A DNA stretch of 32,190 bases from contig JAOPWZ010000007.1 of the NCBI GenBank assembly GCA_025965435.1, positions 1 to 32,190 of the forward strand, given 5' to 3'. This DNA is from Aeromicrobium sp. (lineage in GTDB: Bacteria; Actinomycetota; Actinomycetes; Propionibacteriales; Nocardioidaceae). Numbering within the stretch: position 1 is the stretch's first letter; the number at the start of each line of letters is the position of its first letter. Of this stretch, positions 3,224-27,254 are shown piece by piece. The notes beneath the pieces are model-generated. The model saw nothing but the letters and a program-made list of their open reading frames with translations, was not told the DNA's origin and searched no databases. Position numbers and translations under genes: made by a program.

Positions 3224-4187
3224 CATCCGTCCGGGGCAGGAGCGCTTCGTCGCTCCGATCGACGAGACGCCCCTTCGTGCCATTGATGCCGTCAACGTCG
3301 ACGCGGTTCCCGAGAACCAGTGGAAGGAGGCATGGAAGCGCCTGCGCACCTCGCCGCTGTTCTGGCTGGCCACGGCGATCCTGGTCGTGATCGCGCTGAT
3401 GATCTTCTTCCCCTCGCTGTTCACGAGCGCCGACCCCGAGCGGGCCTCGCTCGACAACAGCTTCGGGCCGGCCTCCGACGGTCACCCCTTCGGCTTCACC
3501 CAGCAGGGCGCCGATGTCTGGGCGCGTACCGTCCACGGCGCGCGCGCCTCGGTGACGATCGGCCTGCTGACCACGATCCTGACCGCTCTGCTCGGCATGA
3601 TCACGGGCGCCATCGCCGGCTACTACGGCGGCCTCATGGACACGTTGATCTCGCGCTTCAGCGACATCTTCTTCTCGATCCCGCTGCTGCTGGCCTGCAT
3701 CGTGGTCATCTCGGTGCTCAACAACACCTTCCCCAACCGTGGGTTCTGGGGATCGGTCATGGTCGTGGTGCTGGCCCTCGCGACGTTCGCGTGGCCGCAG
3801 ATCACCCGCCAGATGCGCGGTGCCGTGCTGGAGATCAAGAATCTGGAGTTCGTCGACGCCGCCACGGCCATCGGCGCCTCGAAGATGAAGAACCTGCGGC
3901 GCCACATCGTGCCCAACGCCCTGGCGCCCGTCATCGTGGCCTCGACGATCTCGCTCGGCGTGTTCATCGTCGCCGAGTCGTCGCTGTCGTTCCTCGGCCT
4001 GGGACTGCCCAGCAACGTCGTGTCGTGGGGCAATGACATCTCCGCCGCCCAGAACCAGGTGCGGTCGGGTCAGAACCTGGATGTCATGTTCGTGCCGGCC
4101 GCTGCGTTGGCGTTCACGGTGCTCGGCTTCATCCTGCTGGGTGAGGCCGTCCGTGAGGCGCTCGATCCGAAGGCGAGGAAGAAGTGA
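3216..4187 (+). CDS. Peptide ABC transporter permease, DppC/OppC type
   Basis: 323-residue partner permease. It has the long cytoplasmic N-terminal tail usual for DppC, then a first membrane helix (WLATAILVVIALMIFFPSLF), a periplasmic part with HPFGFTQQGADVWARTVHGAR (the conserved GTD..GRD..SR region in a variant form), and the membrane core. The EAA loop reads EFVDAATAIGASKMKNLRRH, then IVPNALAPVI. The C-terminal LGEAVREALDPKARKK is characteristic. ATG 3216 lies within the end of the upstream permease gene, and its own stop overlaps the ATPase start (GTGA), so the three membrane-complex genes form one coupled unit. Confidence 0.95.
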   Translation: MPDIRPGQERFVAPIDETPLRAIDAVNVDAVPENQWKEAWKRLRTSPLFWLATAILVVIALMIFFPSLFTSADPERASLDNSFGPASDGHPFGFTQQGADVWARTVHGARASVTIGLLTTILTALLGMITGAIAGYYGGLMDTLISRFSDIFFSIPLLLACIVVISVLNNTFPNRGFWGSVMVVVLALATFAWPQITRQMRGAVLEIKNLEFVDAATAIGASKMKNLRRHIVPNALAPVIVASTISLGVFIVAESSLSFLGLGLPSNVVSWGNDISAAQNQVRSGQNLDVMFVPAAALAFTVLGFILLGEAVREALDPKARKK

Positions 4188-5911
4188 GCACCAACCCCGT
4201 GAGCACCGGGCCCCTGCTGGAGATCGAGAACCTCGAGGTCGGCTTCCGGGCCGGCAAGGACCTCCTGACGGCGGTCGACGGCGCGAGCCTGACGATCTAT
4301 CCCGGCCAGACCATCGCGATCGTCGGCGAGTCGGGCTCCGGCAAGTCGACCCTCGCGCACGCCGTCATCGGTCTGCTGCCCGGCAACGGACAGATCACCG
4401 GCGGTGCCATCAAGTTCGAGGGCACCGACATCAGCCATGCGAACCGCAGCCAGATCATGGCCCTGCGCGGCTCGTCGATCGGTCTCGTGCCGCAGGACCC
4501 GATGTCGAACCTGAACCCGCTGTGGCGGGTCGGCACCCAGATCAAGGAGGCGCTGGTCGCCAACGGCGTCGCCACCGGGTCGGCGGCCGACAAGCGAGTC
4601 GTCGAGCTGCTGGAGGAGGCCGGTCTGCCCGATGCGGAGCGCCGGGCCCGCCAGTACCCGCACGAGTTCTCCGGTGGCATGCGCCAGCGCGCGCTCATCG
4701 CGATGGGCCTCGCCGCACGTCCCAAGCTGCTGATCGCCGACGAGCCGACCTCGGCCCTCGACGTCACGGTGCAGAAGCAGATCCTCGATCACCTCGACAC
4801 GCTGACCGAGTCGCTGGGCGTCGCGGTCATGCTCATCACCCACGACCTCGGCCTGGCCGCCGAGCGCGCCGACCACCTCGTCGTGATGTACCGCGGCAAG
4901 ATCGTCGAGTCCGGGCCCGCGCGCGAGATCCTGCAGCGTCCCGAGCATCCGTACACCAAGCGGCTCGTCGCCAAGGCGCCGTCGCTGACCTCCCAGCGGC
5001 TGTCGTCGGTGGCCGCGGCCCGCGCCGAGGTGCGCGAGCAGGCGGTGCAGACAGCGGCCGAGATCGCCGCGGAGGTCGCCCACAGCGCCACCGTGCTCGG
5101 CGAGGGCGTGGACGACATCCTCGTCGTCGACAACCTGACCAAGGTCTTCACGCTGCGCGGCGCGCGGCCCTGGCAGAAGGTCGACTTCGCCGCGGTCGAG
5201 GACGTCTCGTTCCGTCTGCGTCGAGGCACCACGATGGCGATCGTCGGCGAGTCCGGCTCGGGCAAGTCGACCGTGGCACGCATGGTGCTCGACCTGCTCC
5301 CGCCCACCGCGGGACGCATCGAGTTCGACGGGCACGACCTGCGTGATCTCAAGACCAAGGCCGAGCGGCTGAAGCTGCGTCGCCAGATGCAGCCGGTGTT
5401 CCAGAACCCGTACGCGTCGCTCGACCCGCTCTACTCGATCTACCAGTCGATCGAGGAGCCGCTGCGCACGCACGACGTGGGCACCAAGAAGGAGCGCGAG
5501 GCCAAGGTCCGCGACCTGCTCGACAAGGTCTCGCTGCCCACGACCGTCATGGGCCGGTACCCCGGTGAGCTCTCCGGTGGCCAGCGGCAGCGGGTCGCGA
5601 TCGCCCGGGCGCTCGCGCTCGATCCGGAGGTCGTGATCTGTGACGAGGCGGTCTCGGCGCTCGACGTCCTGGTGCAGGCGCAGATCCTCGAGCTGCTCAA
5701 CGACCTGCAGGCCGAGCTGGGGCTCAGCTACCTGTTCATCACGCACGACCTCGCGGTCGTGCGGCAGATCGCCGACGACGTGCTGGTCATGCAGGACGGC
5801 AAGGTCGTGGAGGCCGCGTCGGTCTCCCAGGTCTTCGACAACCCCTCGCAGGACTACACCCGGCGCCTGCTCGACGCCATCCCGGGAGCCTCGATCCAGC
5901 TCGGTCTCTGA
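4184..5911 (+). CDS. Peptide ABC transporter, fused DppD-DppF double ATP-binding protein
   Basis: 575-residue protein with two complete ABC ATPase domains in one chain; in many bacteria these are two genes (DppD and DppF). Domain 1: Walker A GESGSGKST (48-56), signature FSGGMRQR (162-169), Walker B LLIADEPTS (182-190), H-loop TH (219-220). The peptide-transporter C-terminal stretch HPYTKRLV.K.PSL follows. An Ala/Glu-rich linker (about 275-310) leads to domain 2: Walker A GESGSGKST (355-363), signature LSGGQRQR (463-470), Walker B VVICDEAVS (483-491), H-loop TH (520-521). Domain 2 has DEAVS in place of the usual DEPTS; the catalytic Asp-Glu is intact, so activity is expected. The GTG start overlaps the permease stop by 4 nt. 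Confidence 0.95.
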   Translation: MSTNPVSTGPLLEIENLEVGFRAGKDLLTAVDGASLTIYPGQTIAIVGESGSGKSTLAHAVIGLLPGNGQITGGAIKFEGTDISHANRSQIMALRGSSIGLVPQDPMSNLNPLWRVGTQIKEALVANGVATGSAADKRVVELLEEAGLPDAERRARQYPHEFSGGMRQRALIAMGLAARPKLLIADEPTSALDVTVQKQILDHLDTLTESLGVAVMLITHDLGLAAERADHLVVMYRGKIVESGPAREILQRPEHPYTKRLVAKAPSLTSQRLSSVAAARAEVREQAVQTAAEIAAEVAHSATVLGEGVDDILVVDNLTKVFTLRGARPWQKVDFAAVEDVSFRLRRGTTMAIVGESGSGKSTVARMVLDLLPPTAGRIEFDGHDLRDLKTKAERLKLRRQMQPVFQNPYASLDPLYSIYQSIEEPLRTHDVGTKKEREAKVRDLLDKVSLPTTVMGRYPGELSGGQRQRVAIARALALDPEVVICDEAVSALDVLVQAQILELLNDLQAELGLSYLFITHDLAVVRQIADDVLVMQDGKVVEAASVSQVFDNPSQDYTRRLLDAIPGASIQLGL

Positions 5912-5940: not shown

Positions 5941-6028
5941 CCGCGAGCGGTGCAATTCGGGGTTTTCGAGACGGCGTGTCGTCCGAATTTGCACCACTCG
6001 CGGGTGGGTTTGCACCACTCGTGGGTGG
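5941..6028. repeat. GAGT-type palindromic element, locus 1
   Basis: Left arm CCGCGAGCGGTGCAATTCGG (5941-5960) is an imperfect inverted copy of 5983-6003, which reads CCGAATTTGCACC then ACTCGCGG: one G:T wobble and one extra T. The 22-nt loop (5961-5982) has its own small stem, CGAGAC / GTGTCG. The right arm is then repeated in tandem: 5988-6007 and 6009-6028 match at 19 of 20 positions with a 21-nt period. Read on the minus strand, each unit is CCCACC-CGC-GAGT-GGTGCAAA. It fills the gap between the ABC ATPase and the imuA' promoter. Same layout as elements at 8349 and 13389. Confidence 0.8.
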
Positions 6029-6074
6029 CCACGTTGAGGGGGCGTCCACCCCTTGGGCGGTTGAGCCTGCGCAA

Positions 6075-6109
6075 TTGACTCATTCGAACAGATGTTCGAT
6101 CATGGGTGG
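6075..6109 (+). promoter_or_regulatory. imuA' promoter, apparently leaderless
   Basis: TTGACT (6075-6080) and GATCAT (6098-6103) are spaced 17 nt apart. With a -10 ending at 6103, transcription would start at about 6110, the A of the imuA' ATG, giving a leaderless mRNA. No ribosome-binding site is visible before that ATG, which fits. The LexA box fills the spacer. Confidence 0.6.
6084..6099 (+). promoter_or_regulatory. LexA (SOS) box of the imuA'-imuB-dnaE2 cassette
   Basis: TCGAAC-AGAT-GTTCGA is a perfect match to the actinobacterial/Bacillus LexA consensus. It lies between the -35 and -10 of the imuA' promoter, so bound LexA would block RNA polymerase and DNA damage would release it. Confidence 0.92.
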
Positions 6110-6769
6110 ATGAACGCCGCCGCAGCCCCCACTCTGAACGAGCTGCGGGCCCGGGTCGACCAGATGCAGGGCCGGCCGGCCGCCCAGCCGGTCGCGACCC
6201 ATCCGGCCTTCGCCGGTCTGCTGCAGCTCCAGTCCGGATCGACCTACTCGGTCGACTCGATGAGCCTGGCCACGGCCCTCATGGCCGGTCCCTCGGCCGA
6301 TGGCGCCTGGTGCGGGGTCGTGGGAACGGCCGAGCTGGGCCTGGAGGCTGCCGCGGCGGCCGGTGTCGAGCTGCGGCGCACCATCCTGGTGCCCGATCCG
6401 GGGGAGTCCTGGCTCGAGGTCACGGCGGCCCTCATCGACGTGCTCGGCGTCGTGGTGCTGCGGGCGCCCTCGCACGTCGGCGCCAAGGACGTCGCACGCA
6501 TCAGCGCCCGGCTGCGCCAGCGCGGGAGCATCCTCATCTCGTACGGCGACTGGCCCCGCAGCGAGGCGCGGCTCACGATGCGTGACGTGCAGTGGGCGGG
6601 CATGGGGCAGGGCCACGGGCACCTGCAGGCGCGCCAGGTCACGATCGAGGTGCAGCGCGGCACGGCTCCGGCTCGTCGTGGCCGGCTCTGGCTGCCCGAT
6701 GCGTCCCAGGTCATCCGGCGGGTCGAGTCCTCGGGCGAGGCGCCCACCCGGCTGCGGAGCGTGTCCTGA
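6110..6769 (+). CDS. imuA': ImuA'-like mutasome protein (RecA-like remnant)
   Basis: 219 residues from ATG 6110. The frame is open from an ATG at 6092, but that codon lies inside the LexA box, so I take the next in-frame Met, which matches the predicted transcription start. The protein has a RecA/SulA-like fold pattern (WCGVVGTAELGLEAAAAAGVEL, in two parts: WCGVVGTAELGL and EAAAAAGVEL; then RRTILVPDPGE and LIDVLGVVVLRAP) but no Walker A GxxxxGKT, as known for ImuA'. In mycobacteria ImuA' works with ImuB and DnaE2 in damage-induced mutagenesis, interacting with ImuB. The identity rests on size, weak RecA likeness, the SOS box and the two genes that follow; sequence alone would be only moderate evidence. 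Confidence 0.85.
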   Translation: MNAAAAPTLNELRARVDQMQGRPAAQPVATHPAFAGLLQLQSGSTYSVDSMSLATALMAGPSADGAWCGVVGTAELGLEAAAAAGVELRRTILVPDPGESWLEVTAALIDVLGVVVLRAPSHVGAKDVARISARLRQRGSILISYGDWPRSEARLTMRDVQWAGMGQGHGHLQARQVTIEVQRGTAPARRGRLWLPDASQVIRRVESSGEAPTRLRSVS

Positions 6770-6776
6770 GATGTCC

Positions 6777-6820
6777 GAGCGCAGCGAGGCGTCGGCCGAG
6801 CGTGAGGGAGCGAAGCGACC
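6777..6820 (+). repeat. GAGCG-AGCGA low-complexity element at the imuA'/imuB junction
   Basis: GAGCGCAGCGAGGC (6777-6790) and GAGCGAAGCGACC (6808-6820) are related short words. Words of this kind are widespread between actinobacterial genes. Here the segment is open in the imuB frame and would encode an Arg/Glu/Ser-rich tail if the early ATG were used. More likely it is an untranslated spacer. Confidence 0.4.
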
Positions 6821-6833
6821 GAAGGGACGCACG

Positions 6834-8330
6834 ATGGTGCTGTGGGCACCGGACTGGCCGATCGTCGCTGTCGACGTGCCCGCGTCGGTGCCGGCCGCCG
6901 TGATCGAGAAGGGGCAGGTGCTGGCCTGCTCGCAGGCGGCGCGGTCCGAGGGCGTCCGCCGGGGCATGCGGCGTCGTGACGCCCAGTCGCGGTGTCCCGG
7001 GCTCGTCCTGCACGATCACCACCCCGATGTCGACGCGCGGGCCTTCGAGGCCGTGCTCACCGCGATCGAGGAGCTGAGCCCCGGCGTCGCACCGCTGCGA
7101 CCCGGGCTCTGCGCAGTGTCGGTGCCGGCGCGCTTCTACGGCGGCGAGGCCGAGGCGGCGGCCGTCATCGCCGAACGACTCGTCGGCCTGGGGGTGTGGG
7201 ACGTGCGCGCCGGTATCGCCGACGGCCTGTTCGCCGCGGAGCAGGCGGCTCGCCGGGCCCTGGCCCAGGACAGCCTCATCGTCCCTGCCGGCGGTTCCGG
7301 GCAGTTCCTGCACGACCTGCCGATCGACGCGCTGGACGATGCGGACATGGTGGGGCTCCTGCGCCGCATGGGGCTGCGGACCCTGGGTGACTTCGCCGCG
7401 CTGCCACCGGCCGACGTCCACACCCGGTTCGGCACCCACGGGGCCCTGCAGCACCGGCTGGCCCGTGGGCAGGACGCGCAGCCGATCAGCCGCCGGCAGG
7501 TGCCTCCGGAGTTCGACGCGACCCTGCTGCTGGAGCCGCCGCTCGACCTGGTCGAGCCCATCGCCTTCAGCCTGCGCACCACCGCCGATGCCTTCGTGGC
7601 CGATCTGGCCGCGCACGGGCTGGTGTGCACGACGGTGCTGATCGAGGTCGACGCCGACGGGTCCCTGGCGACCTCACGGCGCTGGATGCATCCGCGCTGG
7701 TTCGGGCCGACCGACCTGATCGACCGGGTCCGGTGGCAGCTGGCGGTCGACGGCGCGATCCGCGCACCCGTCGACGCCGTGCGGCTGATCCCCGAGGTCA
7801 CCGAGCCGTTGGCTGACCATGCCGACAGCCTCTTCGGTGGTGGTCCCGACGAGCGGGTCGAGCGCGGAGTGGCCCGGGTGCAGAGCATCGTCGGTCACGA
7901 GTCGGTCGTCTCCGTCACGGTGCAGGGTGGGCGAGGCCCCGGCGAGCGTCACCTGCTCACGCCCTGGGGCGAGCGTCCGCTGGCGTCCCGCCCGGCCGGT
8001 CTGCCCTGGCCCGGCAGCCTGCCCGCTCCGGCGCCGGCGACGGTGTACCCCTCGCCGCAGCAGGCCATGGTCGTGGGGGCCGAGGGGCAGTCGATCGGGG
8101 TCTCCGGCCGAGGGGTCGTCACGGGGGAGCCGGCCCGCTTCCGGGTCGCGGCCGACCAGGGCTGGCAGCCCGTCGCCTCGTGGGCCGGACCCTGGCCCGT
8201 CGACGACCAGTGGTGGGACGAGGCGGCGTCACGCCGGCTCGCGCGCTTCCAGGTCGTCGGCGTCGACGGCAGCGCCTTCCTCATGATCGTCGAGGGCGGC
8301 CACTGGTGGACGGAAGCCCGCTATGACTGA
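6834..8330 (+). CDS. imuB: ImuB, inactive Y-family polymerase-like mutasome adaptor
   Basis: 498 residues from ATG 6834, chosen because GAAGGGA (6821-6827) sits 6 nt upstream and MVLWAPDWPIVAVD is the usual ImuB beginning; an in-frame ATG at 6771, right after the imuA' stop, would add 21 low-complexity residues. The chain follows the Y-family layout (palm and fingers; the helix-hairpin part LLRRMGLRTLGDFAALP; little finger) but the acidic metal-binding residues of active Pol IV (DMDAFF, SIDE) are absent, as in known ImuB. ADSLF (330-334) resembles the QL[SD]LF beta-clamp peptide. In mycobacteria ImuB bridges the clamp, ImuA' and DnaE2. The C-terminal 130 residues end in WW.EA.RRLARFQVV and WWTEARYD, typical of the family. 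Confidence 0.93.
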   Translation: MVLWAPDWPIVAVDVPASVPAAVIEKGQVLACSQAARSEGVRRGMRRRDAQSRCPGLVLHDHHPDVDARAFEAVLTAIEELSPGVAPLRPGLCAVSVPARFYGGEAEAAAVIAERLVGLGVWDVRAGIADGLFAAEQAARRALAQDSLIVPAGGSGQFLHDLPIDALDDADMVGLLRRMGLRTLGDFAALPPADVHTRFGTHGALQHRLARGQDAQPISRRQVPPEFDATLLLEPPLDLVEPIAFSLRTTADAFVADLAAHGLVCTTVLIEVDADGSLATSRRWMHPRWFGPTDLIDRVRWQLAVDGAIRAPVDAVRLIPEVTEPLADHADSLFGGGPDERVERGVARVQSIVGHESVVSVTVQGGRGPGERHLLTPWGERPLASRPAGLPWPGSLPAPAPATVYPSPQQAMVVGAEGQSIGVSGRGVVTGEPARFRVAADQGWQPVASWAGPWPVDDQWWDEAASRRLARFQVVGVDGSAFLMIVEGGHWWTEARYD

Positions 8331-8348
8331 CCCCACCTCCCCGCTGCC

Positions 8349-8434
8349 CCTCACCTTCCCGCTGAGTGTGACGTTTCTGCGTCCTCGGCCGCCTGGTGGG
8401 AAGGGTAAACGTCACACTCAGCGGGTAGGTGAGG
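8349..8434 (+). repeat. GAGT-type palindrome, locus 2: 28-bp hairpin before dnaE2
   Basis: The arms 8349-8376 and 8407-8434 are complementary at 27 of 28 positions (T8357/T8426 is the mismatch), with a 30-nt loop. The inner 19 bp are perfect: right arm AAACGTCACACTCAGCGGG (8407-8425). The outer part pairs CCTCACCT (8349-8356) with AGGTGAGG (8427-8434), which is also the best ribosome-binding candidate for dnaE2 (GTG at 8439). The element fills almost the whole imuB-dnaE2 gap. It could act as an attenuator, a translation switch or an mRNA end. No separate LexA box is seen in this gap. Confidence 0.9.
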
Positions 8435-8438
8435 CCGG

Positions 8439-11400
8439 GTGAGCTGGAACAACCCGGACGTCTCGTGGCGCGAGCTCGAGCGCCGGCTGTCAGGACGTCC
8501 CGAGCCCGATGGCGGCGATGCGCCCGGATGGTCGCGCAAGCGGCGCAAGACCGGTCCCAAGGAGATCGAGGGCCCCGCCGGCCCGGTCGTGCCCTATGCC
8601 GAGCTGCACTGCCACAGCCACTTCAGCTTCCTCGACGGGGCGAGCGGTCCCGACGACCTGGTCGAGGAGGCGATCGCCCTGGGCCTGGAAGGGTTGGCGA
8701 TCACCGACCACGACGGCTTCTACGGCGCACCGCGATTCGCCGAGGAGACCGCCAAGTACCCGGGATCGGGGCTGCGGACGGTCTACGGTGCCGAGCTCTC
8801 GCTCGGCCTGCGGGCCCCGCAGAACGGCGTCGCCGACCCCGAGGGCAGCCACCTGCTGGTGCTCGCCCGGGGCGTCGAGGGCTACCACCGCCTCGCTGCG
8901 GCGATCACCGATGCGCAGCTGCGCGGTGACGAGAAGGGCAAGCCCGTCTACGACCTCGACGAGCTGGCCGAACGGGGCCGTGACCACTGGGTCGTGCTGA
9001 CCGGCTGCCGCAAGGGGCACGTGCGTCAGGCGCTGGCCACGGGAGGACGGCAGGCCGCCGCCGCGGCGCTCGACCTGCTCACGGAGCGCTTCGGACGGGA
9101 CGGGGTCGGCGTCGAGCTCATCGACCACGGCTTCGCGACCGACAGCACCGCCAACGACGCCCTGGCCGACCTCGCCCTCGACCACGGGCTCGCGACGGTC
9201 GCGACCAACAACGTCCACTTCGCCAAGCCGGCCGGCGGGCGCCTGGCGGCGGCGATGGCAGCGGTCCGCGCCCGGCGCAGCCTCGCCGAGATGGACGGCT
9301 GGCTGCCGGCCACGGGGGCCGCCCACCTGCGGTCGGGGGCGGAGATGCACCAGCTGTTCCGCCGCTACCCGGGGGCCGTCGCGCGGACGGTGCCGCTGGC
9401 CGACGAGCTCGCCTTCGACCTGCGGGCGGCCACCCCGCGGCTGCCGCGCCGGGGCATCCCGGAGGGGCATACCGCGATGAGCTGGCTGCGCGTCCTGGCG
9501 GAGCGGGGCATCCAGAAGCGCTACGCCCACAACCAGGAGGCGGCGCGCGAGCGCATCGAGCGGGAGCTCGCCGTGATCGAGGAGAAGGACTTCCCGGGCT
9601 ACTTCCTGATCGTCCACGACATCGTGCAGTTCGCCCGCGGCCAGAAGATCCTGTGCCAGGGGCGAGGCTCCTCGGCCAACTCCGCGCTCTGCTATGCCCT
9701 CGAGATCACCGCGATCGACTCGATCTTCTTCGACCTGCCGTTCGAGCGCTTCCTCGCCACGACCCGCGAGGAGGAGCCCGACATCGATGTCGACTTCGAC
9801 TCCGACCGCCGTGAAGAGGTCATCCAGTGGGTCTACGACACGTACGGGCGGCGCAACGCGGCGCAGGTCGCCAATGTCATCAGCTACCGGCCCCGCTCGG
9901 CGATCCGCGACGCCGCCAAGGCGCTGGGCCACTCCGTGGGGCAGCAGGACGCCTGGTCCAAGCAGATCGACGGCTGGGGGGCGATGGGCAGCGAGGACGT
10001 CGAGGGCATCCCCGCGCCGGTCGTGTCGGTGGCCCGGCAGATGATGACCGCGCCCCGGCACCTGGGCATCCACTCCGGCGGCATGATCCTGACCGAGCGC
10101 CCCATCGGCGAGGTGTGCCCGATCGAGCGCGGCCGCATGGACAAGCGCACGGTCCTGCAGTGGGACAAGGACGCCTGCGAGTTCATGGGGCTGGTCAAGT
10201 TCGACCTGTTGGGACTCGGCATGCTCGGGGCGCTCGACCGCACGATGCGGATCGTCGCGGAGCACCTGGGGGAGGAGTGGGACCTCGACTCGATGCCCAA
10301 GGAGGAGGCCGGGGTCTACGACATGCTGTGCCGGGCCGACTCGATCGGGGTGTTCCAGGTCGAGAGCCGCGCCCAGATCGGCACCCTGCCCCGGCTGCAG
10401 CCCCGCCGGGCGTACGACCTCGCGATCGAGATCGCGCTGATCCGTCCCGGGCCGATCCAGGGCGGTGCCGTGCACCCGTACATCCGCCGGGCCATGGGCA
10501 AGGAGGAGGTCAGCTACCCCCACCCCATCCTGGAGCCGGTGCTGGAGCGCACCAAGGGCGTCCCGCTGTTCCAGGAGCAGCTCATGCAGATGGCGATCGC
10601 GATCGGCGACTGCACGGGCGACGAGGCCGATCTGCTGCGCCGGGCCATGGGCTCCAAGCGCGGCATCGAGCGCATCGAGTCGCTGGAGGACAAGCTCTTC
10701 GCCGGCATGGCGCGGCACGGGCTGACCCGGGAGGAGTCCGACGCGATCTATCTCAAGATCAAGTCGTTCGCCAACTTCGGCTTCGCCGAGAGCCATGCGC
10801 TGAGTTTCTCGTTGCTGGTCTACGCCAGCTCCTGGCTCAAGCTGCACTACCCGGGGGCCTTCCTGGCGGCGCTGCTGCGCAACCAGCCCATGGGGTTCTA
10901 CTCACCGCAGTCGCTGACGACCGACGCACGGCGCCACGGGGTGACGATCCTGCGTCCCGACATCCTGCGGTCACGCGCACAGGCCGATCTCGAGCCCATC
11001 GGTGACGGGCGGCCGACGGGTCGCGATGCCTGCCTCGCGCGCGTCCAGCCGCCGGTGCCGGCGTTCGTGCCCGGCACGCCCGACCCGACGCCCGAGCACC
11101 GCCGTGACGGCGCGTTCGCGGTGCGCCTCGGGCTCGACGAGGTCCAGGGCATCGGCAAGGACGTCGCGGTGCGCATCGTGGCCGAGCGCGACCGCGAGTC
11201 CTTCGCCGACATGGCCGACGTGGCCCGCCGCACCGGTCTCTCCGTGGCGCAGATGGAGTCGCTGGCCACGGCCGGCGCGTTCGACGTCTTCGGGATCTCG
11301 CGCCGCCAGGCGCTGTGGAACGCCGGCTACGTCCAGAGCGACACCCAGCTCGAGGGCACCGCGGTCACGGCGCCGCCCCCCATGCTCCCGGGCATGAGCG

Positions 11401-11837
11401 ACGTCGAGCTCACGATGGCCGACCTGTGGGCCACCGGCATCTCGGCCGACACCCATCCCATCGAGCACCTCCGGCCGCTGCTGCGCACCGAGGGCATCCT
11501 CTCGGTCGCCGACACCGCCACGCACGAGGCCGATCGACGGGTCAAGGTCGCCGGGCTCATCACGCACCGGCAGCGCCCGGCCACGGCGTCGGGGGTCACG
11601 TTCCTCAACATCGAGGACGAGACCGGCATGCTCAACGTCGTCTGCTCCCAGGCGCTCTGGGCGCGCTACCGGGTCGTCGGGCGCAATGCGGCCGGCATGG
11701 TCATCCGGGGCATCCTCGAGCGCAGCCACGAGGGCGTCGTCAATCTCGTGGCCGACAAGCTCATGCGCATCGAGGAGGTCTATCCCGAGGCCGGCCGGGC
11801 GATCCCGGCCCGGCACCGGGGCCGCGACTTCCAGTGA
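8439..11837 (+). CDS. dnaE2: Error-prone DNA polymerase III alpha subunit, DnaE2
   Basis: 1132-residue C-family polymerase that carries out translesion and mutagenic synthesis with ImuA'/ImuB. GTG 8439 gives the usual DnaE2 start (MSWNNPDVSWRELERRL). Domains: N-terminal PHP domain with AELHCHSHFSFLDGAS (from about residue 54; His57, His59) and AITDHDGFYG; palm with PDIDVDFDSDRR (447-458; Asp450 and Asp452 are the catalytic pair) and KFDLLGLG (third Asp, 589); IHSGGM; the finger region IRPGPIQGGAVHPYI; helix-hairpin-helix near LGLDEVQGIGKDVA; C-terminal OB fold KVAGLITHRQRPATASGV, then FLNIEDETG. It ends in the short RGRDF tail of the DnaE2 branch. The stop is 6 nt from that of the convergent ligase gene. 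Confidence 0.96.
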   Translation: MSWNNPDVSWRELERRLSGRPEPDGGDAPGWSRKRRKTGPKEIEGPAGPVVPYAELHCHSHFSFLDGASGPDDLVEEAIALGLEGLAITDHDGFYGAPRFAEETAKYPGSGLRTVYGAELSLGLRAPQNGVADPEGSHLLVLARGVEGYHRLAAAITDAQLRGDEKGKPVYDLDELAERGRDHWVVLTGCRKGHVRQALATGGRQAAAAALDLLTERFGRDGVGVELIDHGFATDSTANDALADLALDHGLATVATNNVHFAKPAGGRLAAAMAAVRARRSLAEMDGWLPATGAAHLRSGAEMHQLFRRYPGAVARTVPLADELAFDLRAATPRLPRRGIPEGHTAMSWLRVLAERGIQKRYAHNQEAARERIERELAVIEEKDFPGYFLIVHDIVQFARGQKILCQGRGSSANSALCYALEITAIDSIFFDLPFERFLATTREEEPDIDVDFDSDRREEVIQWVYDTYGRRNAAQVANVISYRPRSAIRDAAKALGHSVGQQDAWSKQIDGWGAMGSEDVEGIPAPVVSVARQMMTAPRHLGIHSGGMILTERPIGEVCPIERGRMDKRTVLQWDKDACEFMGLVKFDLLGLGMLGALDRTMRIVAEHLGEEWDLDSMPKEEAGVYDMLCRADSIGVFQVESRAQIGTLPRLQPRRAYDLAIEIALIRPGPIQGGAVHPYIRRAMGKEEVSYPHPILEPVLERTKGVPLFQEQLMQMAIAIGDCTGDEADLLRRAMGSKRGIERIESLEDKLFAGMARHGLTREESDAIYLKIKSFANFGFAESHALSFSLLVYASSWLKLHYPGAFLAALLRNQPMGFYSPQSLTTDARRHGVTILRPDILRSRAQADLEPIGDGRPTGRDACLARVQPPVPAFVPGTPDPTPEHRRDGAFAVRLGLDEVQGIGKDVAVRIVAERDRESFADMADVARRTGLSVAQMESLATAGAFDVFGISRRQALWNAGYVQSDTQLEGTAVTAPPPMLPGMSDVELTMADLWATGISADTHPIEHLRPLLRTEGILSVADTATHEADRRVKVAGLITHRQRPATASGVTFLNIEDETGMLNVVCSQALWARYRVVGRNAAGMVIRGILERSHEGVVNLVADKLMRIEEVYPEAGRAIPARHRGRDFQ

Positions 11838-11843
11838 GGCGGT

Positions 11844-13355
11844 TCAACCGGCGAGGTGGGCGCGCACCGCGTCGATCGTGTCGGCCTCGGCGCCCGTCTT
11901 GTCGTCGCGGTACCGGACGACCCGCGCGAAGCGGAGCGCGACGCCACCGGGGTAGCGGGTCGACCGCTGGACGCCGTCGAACGCGATCTCGACGACCTGC
12001 TCGGGACGCACCGTGACGACGTACCCGTCGTCGTCGAGCTGCAGGTCACGAAACCGCTCGGTCTGCCAGGCGAGCATCTCGTCGGTCATGCCCTTGAACG
12101 TCTTGCCGAGCATCACGAAGCCGTCACCATCTCGGGCACCGAGGTGGAGGTTGGAGAGCCAGCCGCTGCGCCGACCGGACCCGCGCTCGACGGCCAGCAC
12201 GACCAGGTCGAGGGTGTGCACCGGCTTGACCTTGACCCAGGTCGCGCCGCGGCGGCCGGCCGCGTAGGGCGACGCCAGGCTCTTCACGACGACACCCTCG
12301 TGCCCGAGGCCGAGCACCTGCGCGGCGAAAGCCTCGGCCTCCGCGACATCGGCCGTCATCAGGCGCGGCACGCGATGGCGCTCGGGGACCACGGACTCGA
12401 GGGCTTCGAGGCGCGTCGACGTGGGCGCGTCGACGAGGTCCTGCCCGTCGAGGTGCAGCAGGTCGAAGAACGCCGGTGTCAGCTCGACCCCGGTCATGGA
12501 CGCGGCACGCGAGGCCGTCTCCTGGAACGGTCGTGGCCGGCCGTCGGGGCCGAGCGCGAGGACCTCCCCGTCGAGCACGACGGTCTCGCAGGGCAGGGCC
12601 CGCGCGGCGGCGACGACCTCGGGATGACGGGAGGTCACGTCGTCGAGCGAGCGGGTCACCACCAGCACGTCGTCGCCGCTGCGGTGGACCTGGATGCGGA
12701 CGCCGTCGAGCTTCGTGTCGATCGCGCACACGCCGCCGCCGGCCTTGGTCATCGCCGCCTCGATCGTGGGCGCGGTCGAGGCCAGCATCGGGAGCACGGG
12801 GCGTCCCACGGCAACCACGAACGCCGCGAGTGCCTCCTCGCTGCCGCTGAGCGCCGCCGTCGCGACGTCGACCGTCGAACCGGCCATCATCGCCGCCCGG
12901 CGCACGGACGCCGGTGGGACGCCGCCGGCGATCGCGAGCCCTTCCTGCACCAGGGAGTCGAGCGCCCCCTGGCGCACCTCGCCCGTCACGATGCTGCGCA
13001 GCCACCGCTGCTCGTCGGCGGTGGCTCGGGCGAGCAGCCGCTCCGTCGCATCGGCCCGGGCCCGTTGTGAGCCCGCGCCCGCCAGCGTGGCGAGGTGCTC
13101 GAAGGTCTCGTGCACGTCCGACACGGTCAGGGTCGGCGTCGTCGCGGGTTCCGGCGCGTCCCGCAAGGATCGCCAGCCGAGCCCGGTGCGCCGCTGCCGC
13201 AGGGCGCCGGCCAGGTACGACGTCACGGTCGGGACGTCGGCCGCTCCGTCGGCCGCCGTGCGCCGGAGCAGATCGGCGAGGAGCGTCGCCTTGGCGGAGC
13301 GGGACCGCGTGGCGGCCACCGCGGCGGACGTGGCAACGACCTCGGCGAGCAGCAT
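11844..13355 (-). CDS. ligB: ATP-dependent DNA ligase, LigB type
   Basis: 503-residue single-chain ATP-dependent ligase. Order: N-terminal DNA-binding domain (about 1-190, with TGEVRQGALDSLVQEGLA in it), adenylation domain with motif I DTKLDGVR (Lys215 takes the AMP), motif III/IIIa AFFDLLHLDG, motif IV GHEGVVVKS, motif V WVKVKP, then the OB domain (LVVLAVERGSGRRSGWLSNL; LGKTFKGMTDEML). This matches actinobacterial LigB-type ligases, accessory to the essential NAD-dependent LigA. It has no polymerase or nuclease domain, so it is not LigD. The ATG at 13355 has GATGAT 6 nt upstream and no ribosome-binding site, which suggests a leaderless transcript. It is convergent with dnaE2 and divergent from nrtR. 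Confidence 0.92.
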   Translation of the reverse strand: MLLAEVVATSAAVAATRSRSAKATLLADLLRRTAADGAADVPTVTSYLAGALRQRRTGLGWRSLRDAPEPATTPTLTVSDVHETFEHLATLAGAGSQRARADATERLLARATADEQRWLRSIVTGEVRQGALDSLVQEGLAIAGGVPPASVRRAAMMAGSTVDVATAALSGSEEALAAFVVAVGRPVLPMLASTAPTIEAAMTKAGGGVCAIDTKLDGVRIQVHRSGDDVLVVTRSLDDVTSRHPEVVAAARALPCETVVLDGEVLALGPDGRPRPFQETASRAASMTGVELTPAFFDLLHLDGQDLVDAPTSTRLEALESVVPERHRVPRLMTADVAEAEAFAAQVLGLGHEGVVVKSLASPYAAGRRGATWVKVKPVHTLDLVVLAVERGSGRRSGWLSNLHLGARDGDGFVMLGKTFKGMTDEMLAWQTERFRDLQLDDDGYVVTVRPEQVVEIAFDGVQRSTRYPGGVALRFARVVRYRDDKTGAEADTIDAVRAHLAG

Positions 13356-13388
13356 GCGTCCATCATCGCCGACCCGAGCAGATCCGCT

Positions 13389-13615
13389 GAGGAGTCACGC
13401 ACGCCCGCCGAGGAGTCACGCACGCCCACCGAGGAGTCACGCACGCCCGCCGAGGAGTCACGCACGCCCGCCGAGGAGTCACGTGCGCAGGTCTGCGTAA
13501 CTCGCGAGCGGGCCTACGTGACTCGCGAGCGGGCCTACGTGACTCGCGAGCGGGCCTACGTGACTCGCGAGCGGGCCTACGTGACTCGCGAGCGGGCCTA
13601 CGTGACTCGTCGGCG
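13389..13615. repeat. GAGT-type element, locus 3: two opposed 21-bp tandem arrays
   Basis: Array A: GAGGAGTCACG recurs at 13389, 13410, 13431, 13452 and 13473, five units of 21 nt. Array B on the opposite strand: units GTGACTCGCGAGC+GGGCCTAC at 13497, 13518, 13539, 13560 and 13581, plus a partial at 13602; units 2-5 are identical. In the same orientation the units are CCCGCC-GAG-GAGT-CACGCACG (A) and CCCGCT-CGC-GAGT-CACGTAGG (B), so the whole is one large imperfect inverted repeat. The centre (13477-13505) is GAGTCACG-TGCGCA-GGTC-TGCG-TAACTC. With 5' parts 13356-13388 it fills most of the ligB-nrtR gap. Because 21 is a multiple of 3, several frames stay open through it, but they look non-coding. 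Confidence 0.93.
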
Positions 13616-13627
13616 GACTTCGGGAGG

Positions 13628-13695
13628 TGACTTAGGGTTGACGTGACCATAAGTGCGGGCTAGGCTGACCTTAAAGTCACCCCAACCTTAAGTCA
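13628..13695 (+). promoter_or_regulatory. nrtR-nadABC promoter with nested operator palindromes
   Basis: Promoter: TTGACG (13638-13643), 17-nt spacer, TAGGCT (13661-13666). Three symmetric signals overlap it. The 20-nt arms 13628-13647 and 13676-13695 are inverted copies with 3 mismatches (TGACTTAgGGTTG on the left, CAACCTTAAGTCA on the right). Between them TGACCTTAAAGTCA (13666-13679) is a 14-bp palindrome with one mismatched pair, placed on the predicted transcription start. NrtR regulators commonly act as autorepressors on such sites; assignment of these palindromes to NrtR is inferred from position. Confidence 0.65.
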
Positions 13696-13697
13696 GG

Positions 13698-14399
13698 ATG
13701 CACGCCATGACGGTCATGTCCTCGATCGACCAGCGGGTGTCCCTCGCGGTCTCGACCGTGATCTTCGCGCTGCGCCCACACCCCGACAGCGGCCTGATGA
13801 CGCTGTGGCTTCCGCTGGTCCGCCGCATCCGCGAGCCGTACGAAGGTCAGTGGGCGCTGCCCGGCGGACCGCTGGAGGCCCACGAGGACCTGGCCGCGAG
13901 CGCGCGGAGCACGCTCGACCGCACCACCGGGCTCGCGCCCAACTACCTCGAGCAGCTCTACGCCTTCGGCAACGTCGACCGGTCGCCGGGCGACCGGGTC
14001 GTGTCGATCGTCTACTGGGCCCTCGTGCGCCAGGACGAGGTGGCGCGTGCCGTCGACGGCGAGAACGTCGAGTGGTTCGTGGCCGACGACCTGCCGCCCC
14101 TGGCCTTCGACCACACCGCGATCGTCGACTACGCGCTGGCACGGCTGCGGGCCAAGATCACCTACACGCCGATCGCGCACGCCTTCCTGCCGCCGGAGTT
14201 CACCCTCGCCGACCTGCGAGCGGTGCACGAGGCCGTCCTGCGCACGACGCTCGACCCGGCCAACTTCCGCCGTCAGGCGCTGGCCACCAAGACCCTCGTC
14301 CCCACCGGCACGTGCCTGCAGGGCACGAGCCACCGTCCACCCGCGCTGTACCGCTTCGAGGCCGGCGCGACCTCACCCGCACCCGAGGAGCAGCGATGA
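13698..14399 (+). CDS. nrtR: NrtR-type Nudix-related regulator of NAD biosynthesis
   Basis: 233 residues. The N-terminal two-thirds is a Nudix fold (LWLPLVRRIREPYEGQWALP, then GGPLEAHEDL). The Nudix box G-x5-E-x7-REUxEExGU is degenerate: after E63 the residues at the R, E, E, E positions are S71, T72, R75 and T76, so hydrolysis is unlikely and ligand sensing is expected. The C-terminal part (about 155-215, with YTPIAHAFLPPEFTLADLR and ...FRRQALATKTLVPTG) is the winged helix found in NrtR. NrtR represses NAD genes and usually responds to ADP-ribose or NAD-related ligands; here nadA, nadB and nadC follow directly. ATGs at 13698, 13707 and 13716 are all possible starts; the second has AGG 9 nt upstream. 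Confidence 0.9.
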   Translation: MHAMTVMSSIDQRVSLAVSTVIFALRPHPDSGLMTLWLPLVRRIREPYEGQWALPGGPLEAHEDLAASARSTLDRTTGLAPNYLEQLYAFGNVDRSPGDRVVSIVYWALVRQDEVARAVDGENVEWFVADDLPPLAFDHTAIVDYALARLRAKITYTPIAHAFLPPEFTLADLRAVHEAVLRTTLDPANFRRQALATKTLVPTGTCLQGTSHRPPALYRFEAGATSPAPEEQR

Positions 14400-26183: not shown

Positions 26184-27254
26184 ATGCAGTTCGGAGTCGT
26201 CCTCCAGACCAATCCACCCGCCTGGCGCACGGTCCAGCTGGCCAAGCTCGCCGAGGAGCACGGCTTCGACCACGTGTGGACGTTCGACAGCCACCTCCTG
26301 TGGCAGGAGCCGTACGTCATCTACAGCGCGATCCTCGCCCAGACCCACCGCATCACGGTCGGTCCGATGGTGACCAACCCGGCGACTCGCGACTGGACCG
26401 TGACGGCCTCGGTCTTCGCAACGCTCAACGAGATGTACGGCAACCGGACGGTGTGCGGCATCGGCCGGGGTGACTCGGCCGTCCGGGTCACCAACGGCAA
26501 GCCGTCGACGCTCAAGGAGGTGCGCGAGGCGACCCACGTCATCCGCGAGCTCGCGAACGGCCGGGCCGTGGACTACAAGGGGTCGTCGTTGCGATTCCCG
26601 TGGACGACCACCACGTCGCTGGAGGTGTGGGTCGCGGCGTACGGGCCGATGGCGCTGAAGGTGGCCGGCGAGGTCGGCGACGGCTTCATCCTGCAGCTCG
26701 CCGACGTCGACATCACGCGCTGGATGATCCAGACCGTCAAGGACGCCGCGACGAACGCGGGCCGCGACCCGGAGTCGCTGTCGTTCTGCATCGCGGCGCC
26801 GATGTACATCGGCGACGACTGGGAGCACATGCGCGACCAGTGCCGCTGGTTCGGCGGCATGGTCGGCAACCACGTCGCCGACATCGTCGCGAAGTACGGC
26901 GACCCTTCGACAGGCTCAGGGGGCACGGACGGCTCAGGGGGCAAGGACGGCTCGGGGGGCACGGCCGTGCCGCAGGCCCTGACGGACTACATCAGGGGCC
27001 GGGAAGGCTACGACTACAACGAGCACGGACGTGCCGGCAACACCCACGCCGAGTTCGTCCCCGACGAGATCGTCGACCGCTTCTGCCTGCTCGGCCCGGT
27101 CGAGGACCACGTCGAGAAGCTCACGGCGCTGCGGGAGGTCGGCGTGACGCAGTTCGCGGGCTACCTACAGCACGACAACAAGGAGGAGACCCTGCGGGTC
27201 TACGGCGAGTCGGTCATCCCGCAGATCCGCGAGCACGTCACCGCCAAGTCATGA
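26184..27254 (+). CDS. LLM-class (F420/flavin-dependent) oxidoreductase
   Basis: 356-residue luciferase-like TIM-barrel protein. ATG 26184 has GAAAGG about 8 nt upstream, and the gene follows dihydropyrimidinase by 30 nt. Family marks: MQFGVVLQTNPPAWRTVQLA, EEHGFDHVWTFDSH, RITVGPMVTNPATRDWTV, CGIGRGDSAVRV, and VWVAAYGPMALKVAGEVGDGFILQ. These resemble methylene-tetrahydromethanopterin-reductase-like proteins (the TIGR03842-type group), for which F420 use is suspected but not proven in bacteria. Residues about 240-262 are a Gly/Ser insertion (DPSTGSGGTDGSGGKDGSGG) made from an 18-bp triplication. Position suggests a role in pyrimidine breakdown; the reaction is not known from the sequence. Confidence 0.88.
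   Translation: MQFGVVLQTNPPAWRTVQLAKLAEEHGFDHVWTFDSHLLWQEPYVIYSAILAQTHRITVGPMVTNPATRDWTVTASVFATLNEMYGNRTVCGIGRGDSAVRVTNGKPSTLKEVREATHVIRELANGRAVDYKGSSLRFPWTTTTSLEVWVAAYGPMALKVAGEVGDGFILQLADVDITRWMIQTVKDAATNAGRDPESLSFCIAAPMYIGDDWEHMRDQCRWFGGMVGNHVADIVAKYGDPSTGSGGTDGSGGKDGSGGTAVPQALTDYIRGREGYDYNEHGRAGNTHAEFVPDEIVDRFCLLGPVEDHVEKLTALREVGVTQFAGYLQHDNKEETLRVYGESVIPQIREHVTAKS
26903..26966 (+). repeat. CCCTTCGACAGGCTCAGGG word plus three 18-bp repeats inside the LLM gene
   Basis: CCCTTCGACAGGCTCAGGG is at 26903-26921. Overlapping it are three tandem units of 18 nt (26913-26930, 26931-26948, 26949-26966) of the form GGCTCRGGGGGCAMGGMC. In frame they encode GSGGTD, GSGGKD and GSGGTA. The array looks like an in-frame insertion followed by slippage. 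Confidence 0.85.

Follow-up and report, generated by a model that had tools for sequence, protein, structure and literature searches.

What are the palindromes that occupy three intergenic gaps in a 32,190-nucleotide (nt) stretch of Aeromicrobium sp. DNA (the window, taken at its full length; contig JAOPWZ010000007.1 of GenBank assembly GCA_025965435.1)? A sequence-only reading had treated them as one modular element, in which a GAGT word and a C-rich flank form a constant frame around an 8-nt word peculiar to each locus; a mobile palindrome family, arrays of binding sites for related proteins and a fast-diversifying repeat were the identities it considered. The palindromes are present where that reading placed them, and they represent three separate families: F1 (8349-8434), F2 (13384-13617) and F3 (5941-6028). 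With a probability of roughly 0.6, these are members of dispersed families, each paired with its own single-gene AbiEi-like/Vsr-like partner that reads, spreads and rewrites the copies. The system as a whole is best read as a vertically inherited, REPIN-RAYT-like population of palindromic replicators with an unrelated nuclease as its server, and this partnership of repeat and enzyme looks like a kind previously undescribed.

Dispersed palindrome families

The window genome (G000; 2.15 Mb, 58.8% complete) was compared with 48 other genomes of one genus. The pattern CCC[AG]C[CT]-N3-GAGT occurs in 51 places in this genome (14 for the reversed control pattern), and F1, F2 and F3 each occur in far more places than the three gaps. 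A de novo scan of 419,691 bases of the genome, ordinary terminators included, recovered 30 inverted repeats scoring at least 15, and the same scan of letter-shuffled sequence recovered 0. The 8-nt word marks a family and not a single locus, since each word recurs across the genome. GAGT and its C-rich flank do not form a single frame: GAGT is common to these three families, which are three among many, and is absent from other families of the system in the genus.

The F1 element at 8349-8434, between a Y-family polymerase frame and a presumably DnaE2-like gene, consists of inverted CGCTGAGTGTGACGTTT arms of 28 nt (96% complementary) and a 30-nt spacer. Allowing as many as 3 mismatches, the window genome contains 38 F1 arms (control, 1), of which 32 match exactly. 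Its inverted pairs number 17, with a spacer of 30 nt in 15 and 29 nt in 2. In named genomes 83 F1 places were collected from 80 of 95 matching stretches; among these places, drawn from the best 80 of the 95, the spacer is 29 nt in 81. The spacer is itself palindromic (0.62 vs 0.285) and its sequence is species-specific. In the window genome the inner halves pair at 0.494, compared to 0.370 in shuffled sequence (standard deviation, 0.028). Paired bases covary: in an alignment of 47 elements 18 of 35 pairs are changed on both sides, and both-sided changes fill 211 cells vs 104.5 in shuffles. The arms are uninformative in this alignment because they were chosen as exact, and neither the count of both-sided pairs (18 vs 17.9) nor that of pair types is higher than in shuffles. 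Pairing beyond the arms is locus-specific, outer position 7 matching at 0.68 of 80 loci vs 0.31 across loci; over the 17 pairs of the window genome this effect was not seen. Upstream of the F1 arm (window 8335-8360 and the gap L258), an outer CACCT[TC]CCCGCTG is repeated at short steps in both the window and G011, and these repeats resemble worn outward units.

F3 (CGCGAGTGGTGCAAA) occurs in 38 places in the window genome at up to 2 mismatches (control, 6). The element at 5941-6028 has one plus-strand arm (5942-5956, with GAGC and not GAGT), the centre GAGACGGCGTGTCGTC, and two minus-strand units (5988-6002 and 6009-6023) 21 bp apart. Fourteen clusters of two or more units were read, and in these the centre is conserved and additional units lie 21 bp outside it. 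Single matches to the F3 centre in 6 of 245 genomes of other genera, none with F3 arms, were taken as chance. Two F3-centre pairs approximately 0.8-1.2 kb apart (L336 and L396) bracket no partner gene of the type described below; the second encloses an unrelated zinc-ribbon-like open reading frame (ORF).

F2 is an array family. At 13384-13488 (plus strand) the window carries five 21-bp units (GAGTCACGCACGCCCGCCGAG), and at 13497-13617 (minus strand) six 21-bp units (GAGTCACGTAGGCCCGCTCGC), the first imperfect; taken as two arms, the arrays are 74% complementary over 102 nt. The F2 pattern has 24 exact places in the window genome. With one mismatch it gives 78 vs 58 for the control, and only exact matches were therefore used. 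Ten array stretches, the window's included, hold 73 units, spaced by 21 bp in 56 cases and by 42 bp in two, so that the 21-bp period noted earlier holds for F2 as well as for F3. Several array stretches run to contig ends, and the contigs C90, C133 and C145 of the window genome (L009, L015 and L016) end within or beside F2 arrays. The arrays therefore probably interrupt the assembly, and their count is likely to be too low.

A nuclease-like partner gene between cognate palindromes

Each family brackets a gene for a protein of approximately 330 amino acids. The partner genes read are intergenic ORFs between palindromes, with starts inferred from the profile, and appear to be free-standing chromosomal genes. 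A word of at least 14 nt is common to both flanks of 40/52 partner genes from ten genus genomes, and one of at least 16 nt to both flanks of 32/52; for 287 other genes of the sampled stretches the figures are 8 and 2. The 52 are the genes recovered as ORFs from the 55 behind 56 profile rows; L386, L391 and the fragment L369 were missed by the ORF step, and the duplicate loci L364, L397, L398 and L401 were dropped. Mismatched partner flank pairs share at least 14 nt in 82/2652 cases and at least 16 nt in 43/2652, some of these pairs being orthologues with the same word. Outside the genus 42 of 59 new loci were used, those with a partial profile match, a weak score or too little flank being dropped before counting. 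Words of at least 14 nt common to both flanks were found in 16/28 usable loci from other genera of the family and 9/14 from the wider phylum (mismatched pairs, 25/1722), and words of at least 18 nt in 17/42 loci vs 0/1722. Paralogues carry their own flank words. One paralogue in G047 (L371) is bracketed by another array-type family with 21-bp units (CCCACGCGTCAGCGTGCGCAA). The motif GACACGCC/GGCGTGTC is central in the otherwise different palindromes of L410, L418, L422 and the F3 elements; it occurs in 10/52 and 6/42 partner flank pairs vs 22/600 random 650-nt stretches.

These counts bear on the explanation that the palindromes are ordinary intrinsic terminators, alike by coincidence and without a dedicated partner. 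The hairpins do lie behind stop codons: among the 83 F1 places 60 are clean intergenic, 10 overlap a called gene and 13 are at stretch ends, and the median distance behind stop codons is 19 nt. Coincidence is nevertheless very improbable, since the words are common to tens of unlinked copies, differ between species and bracket one gene family, as the flank control (40/52 vs 8/287) indicates. The U-tract that follows the hairpin of an intrinsic terminator is also absent, no T run being visible by eye past the 3' arm in the F1 alignment (A1; F1 only).

The partner is modelled as an N-terminal AbiEi-like DNA-binding half of the winged-helix type followed by a C-terminal Vsr/I-Bth0305I-like nuclease domain. 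The latter has the Vsr/EDxHD fold and core residues, and the nuclease core residues are invariant. In 5/6 proteins scanned, the C-terminal domain gave Pfam matches of weak to moderate strength to the DUF559/MTES_1575 families (PF04480, PF18741), which are defined by their nuclease domain. Inverted repeats of 23 bp are the binding sites of AbiEi and Rv2827c, which also regulate their own expression (PMC7319586, in the passages concerned); palindrome units of about 21 bp fit this size. A Vsr/homing-type domain could nick or cut at the palindromes. On the combined evidence, no factor is a better candidate than the partner for reading the palindromes, spreading them and keeping them homogeneous.

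The partner-type profile has 3-8 matches per genome in ten genus genomes (56 rows). Elsewhere in the family, 12 genomes representing 11 genera were searched, and all 12 have matches, 6-17 each. The protein family is present in 32/60 phylum genomes sampled, the window's included, with match counts that are lower bounds (up to 37 candidates scored per genome). Such numbers of paralogues would also suit a conflict or immunity device, in which chromosomal palindromes titrate or restrain a nuclease guard that is freed by palindrome loss or by entry of foreign DNA; type IV toxin-antitoxin operons are a known setting of the AbiEi-type half (excerpts of PMC3985639 and PMC7319586). We judge such a device improbable. 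Several paralogue groups keep their chromosomal neighbours across species (among the flanks listed, compared by eye), and PADLOC returned only weak AbiEi and restriction-enzyme matches for five partner proteins. A viral origin was rejected on a search of viral contigs with one partner protein, which found no relative.

Some copies elsewhere in a genome carry the words of that genome's partners. Inverted repeats matching same-genome partner flanks by at least 15 nt number 4/14 in G047 and 5/17 in G008 (200 kb each), for example by 22 nt (L350), 21 nt (L343) and 19 nt (L352, L349 and L379), and 2/30 in 420 kb of the window genome (19 nt in L358, 21 nt in L347). When equal numbers of flanks were drawn 20 times from other genomes, their matches were poorer for 2 of the G047 cases, 4 of the G008 cases and 2 of the window-genome cases; for the remaining three they were as good or better, because orthologues share words. 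In G061, of a different genus, 14 palindromes with large loops lie in the 400 kb scanned, and five of them match flanks of three of the nine partners by 20-23 nt, compared to a best match of 14 nt among randomly drawn other flanks; a sixth palindrome, L510:19463, belongs to a partner locus and was not counted. A further family in G061, GCGGTGTATCGAGACC (L498:7940, L510:11516, L510:11899 and L510:12912), matches any of the nine partner flanks by at most 12 nt.

Partner and copies also occur together across the genus. At least three F1 arms (up to 1 mismatch) are present in 17/23 genomes with an F1 partner (E-value of 1e-30 or better) and in 2/26 without one (Fisher 1.8e-6, uncorrected for relatedness); minus ten less complete genomes, the counts are 15/21 vs 1/18 (4.4e-5). 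Close pairs show the same association. G015 has the partner and 45 arms, whereas G001 has no partner and 2 arms (87-90% nucleotide identity around dnaE2), and G024 (Aeromicrobium sp. PE09-221 by identical stretches) has the partner and 66 arms, whereas G016 (A. piscarium, likewise) has no partner and 7 arms (87.5% identity over 5.6 kb between the two named records). The only genomes with at least three arms and no partner are G016 and the incomplete window genome. The assembly of the latter lacks its F1 and F3 partners; in the proposed model GAGTGTGACGTTT and GAGTGGTGCAA would be expected in their flanks. The six genomes that have the partner and are poor in the F1 word carry different words beside that partner (GGCAGTGACG, GGGCCTGACG and GGGAGTGACG).

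The word follows the protein lineage. F1-like arms lie on both sides of 26/29 F1 partner loci, and among these 29 partners protein distance correlates with word distance (Mantel r 0.364; 4/5000 permutations as high). G047 has two F1-type paralogues, of which the second is nearest the G010 protein and, unlike the first, has G010's word.

Turnover at orthologous sites

The F3 element follows an ABC transporter ATPase gene (4184-5911, plus strand; PF00005) and is followed by an ORF (6092-6769, plus strand) without a Pfam match, which we take from its position to be ImuA-like. An open frame on the same strand (6300-8330) contains an IMS-domain (Y-family polymerase; PF00817) gene, presumably ImuB-like, whose true start is probably well inside the frame. 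Directly after the F1 element begins a DNA polymerase III alpha-type gene (8439-11837, plus strand; PF07733, PF17657, PF02811), assumed to be DnaE2-like and matched in 48/49 genus genomes. The F2 arrays are faced by the start of an ATP-dependent DNA ligase gene (11844-13355, minus strand; PF01068, PF04675, PF04679), and on their far side is an NrtR-type NUDIX regulator gene (13698-14399, plus strand; PF21906, PF00293). AT-richer repeated boxes of the TTAAGGT/CTTAAAGTCA type at 13630-13690, ahead of this gene, are similar in G047 and partly in G008, and are perhaps an NrtR operator. Elsewhere in the window, three tandem 18-bp repeats (GGCTCAGGGGGCACGGAC) lie within open frames at 26913-26966.

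The sequence-only reading had proposed comparing orthologous gaps for presence and absence, and such differences between species are real. The imuB-dnaE2 gap, read in 28/30 genomes, holds F1 in nine (window included), an F3-type element in seven and another palindrome in G016; in eleven it is empty or has sequence not assigned. Between G015 (filled) and G001 (empty), this gap differs by the element and a few substitutions. The sister genome G047 has the same families in all three window gaps, and G008 as well as G047 has the F3 element in the orthologous gap. The ligase gap of G047 has a shorter F2 array, with three units on the plus and five on the minus strand (counted by eye) vs 5 and 6 in the window, and that of G008 has none. 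For an inverted repeat in the G008 ligase gap (L305:11565-11677) the best match within the same genome is 12 nt long, the same as the mean for random draws, and no partner was assigned to it. No target-site duplication was found for F1 over 80 sites, and insertion and precise loss are therefore indistinguishable here. In a single case (E), a G008 element lies between direct repeats of approximately 12 nt where G047 has no element. An apparent concerted word change in F3 between the window genome and G047 involves few elements and contradicts G047's own partner flank; it is not used as support.

The main rival explanation is a regulon or architectural site, in which the partner is a DNA-binding regulator or terminator roadblock, the palindromes are selected operators behind genes that are not copied, and the nuclease domain serves elsewhere. 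Sites such as those bound by AbiEi and Rv2827c (23-bp inverted repeats, with autoregulation; PMC7319586, same passages) would suit the 21-bp spacing. Three observations favour operators: the median of 19 nt behind stops; the preference for convergent gaps, which make up 34 of the 60 clean F1 cases (with 21 tandem and 5 divergent) vs 104 of 375 background gaps (197 tandem, 74 divergent); and the retention of elements at orthologous gaps. We regard the regulator as rather unlikely all the same. The same gap is occupied by different families in different species, the nuclease core residues are invariant, and spacers, which an operator would not need to adjust, vary together with the partner flanks of the same genome. 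Over eight species, dnaE2-gap spacers resemble their own partner-flank spacers with a mean of 0.67 vs 0.41, and the own partner is the best match in 6/8. For G012 the rounded value is the same as for its close relative G026, and for G015 the resemblance to G018 is slightly greater.

Comparison with REPIN-RAYT and proposed mechanism

REPIN-RAYT (TnpAREP) systems, in the portions of PMC3116915, PMC6006769, PMC8266576 and PMC8049555 that describe them, comprise extragenic inverted doublets with a covarying spacer of fixed length and, for each type of repeat, a single stable enzyme gene that cognate repeats often flank; word and enzyme covary. The present system likewise has an inverted doublet with a fixed spacer and paired changes, extragenic placement and, although the enzyme is unrelated, an enzyme gene amid cognate repeats (40/52 vs 8/287). 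REP/REPIN elements served by RAYT, a Y1 transposase, would have the identical layout (inverted doublets with a fixed spacer, enzyme gene among cognate repeats; excerpts of PMC6006769 and PMC3116915). This explanation can be given almost no weight and was rejected, as PF01797 has no match in the 49 genus genomes in a search that was positive in 5/14 control genomes. The sequence-only reading had suggested looking for a RAYT-type transposase or a tracking DNA-binding protein; the first is absent, and the second has a counterpart in a family of related proteins that tracks the words. Further differences are the AbiEi-like plus Vsr-like partner, the 21-bp tandem units of F2 and F3, and the 5'-terminal GT[AG]G foot, not seen by eye in F1 (47-element consensus) or F2 units; some REP classes also lack this foot (PMC6006769, in part). 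Because the defining Y1 enzyme is absent, and because the Actinobacteridae sampled in the relevant part of PMC6006769 carry IS-type subclass 1.1 only, the system works like REPIN-RAYT and is not a member of it.

I-Bth0305I (an EDxHD/Vsr-fold homing endonuclease) and Vsr have the fold and core residues in common with the partner, which differs in being an apparently free-standing chromosomal gene amid dispersed palindromes with an N-terminal AbiEi-like half. The type IV antitoxins AbiEi and Rv2827c share the winged-helix half; unlike them, the partner is fused to a nuclease-like domain and has repeats on both sides of its gene and genome-wide. No link between DUF559/AbiEi-like proteins and palindromic repeats was found in the searches made of the open-access PMC literature, and none of six actinobacterial names tried was found in PMC3733652.

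What the data show is association and covariation; binding, cutting, copying and their order are inferred as follows. The partner would bind its family's word of approximately 20 bp, two copies of which face each other across the fixed spacer, and its nuclease domain would nick or cut at the hairpin or close to it. Through repair or strand transfer, new copies would then arise between genes, for the most part a short way past stop codons, and copies already present would be rewritten. The partner gene would keep a fixed chromosomal place by vertical inheritance, with cognate palindromes on both sides, and word and protein would drift together, such that within a genome all copies of one family have a common dialect. 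Where the partner is lost, the palindrome population would decay.

Whether this extends to Actinobacteria at large is evenly balanced: the Actinomycetota, whose reported Y1 genes are all of the IS type and include no RAYTs, may possess a separate class of palindromic replicators, present throughout the phylum and passed on vertically, with many nuclease-palindrome pairs per genome, in which each AbiEi-like/Vsr-like paralogue owns, spreads and rewrites its own hairpin dialect. If so, nuclease-like proteins that form a large and unexplained actinobacterial family would acquire a DNA partner along with a role that can be tested, and the REPIN-RAYT way of life would have a second, unrelated solution, with several parallel enzyme-word pairs per genome. 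These parallel pairs would supply many natural protein-DNA specificity pairs and open the recognition code, co-evolution and the persistence of replicators to direct tests.

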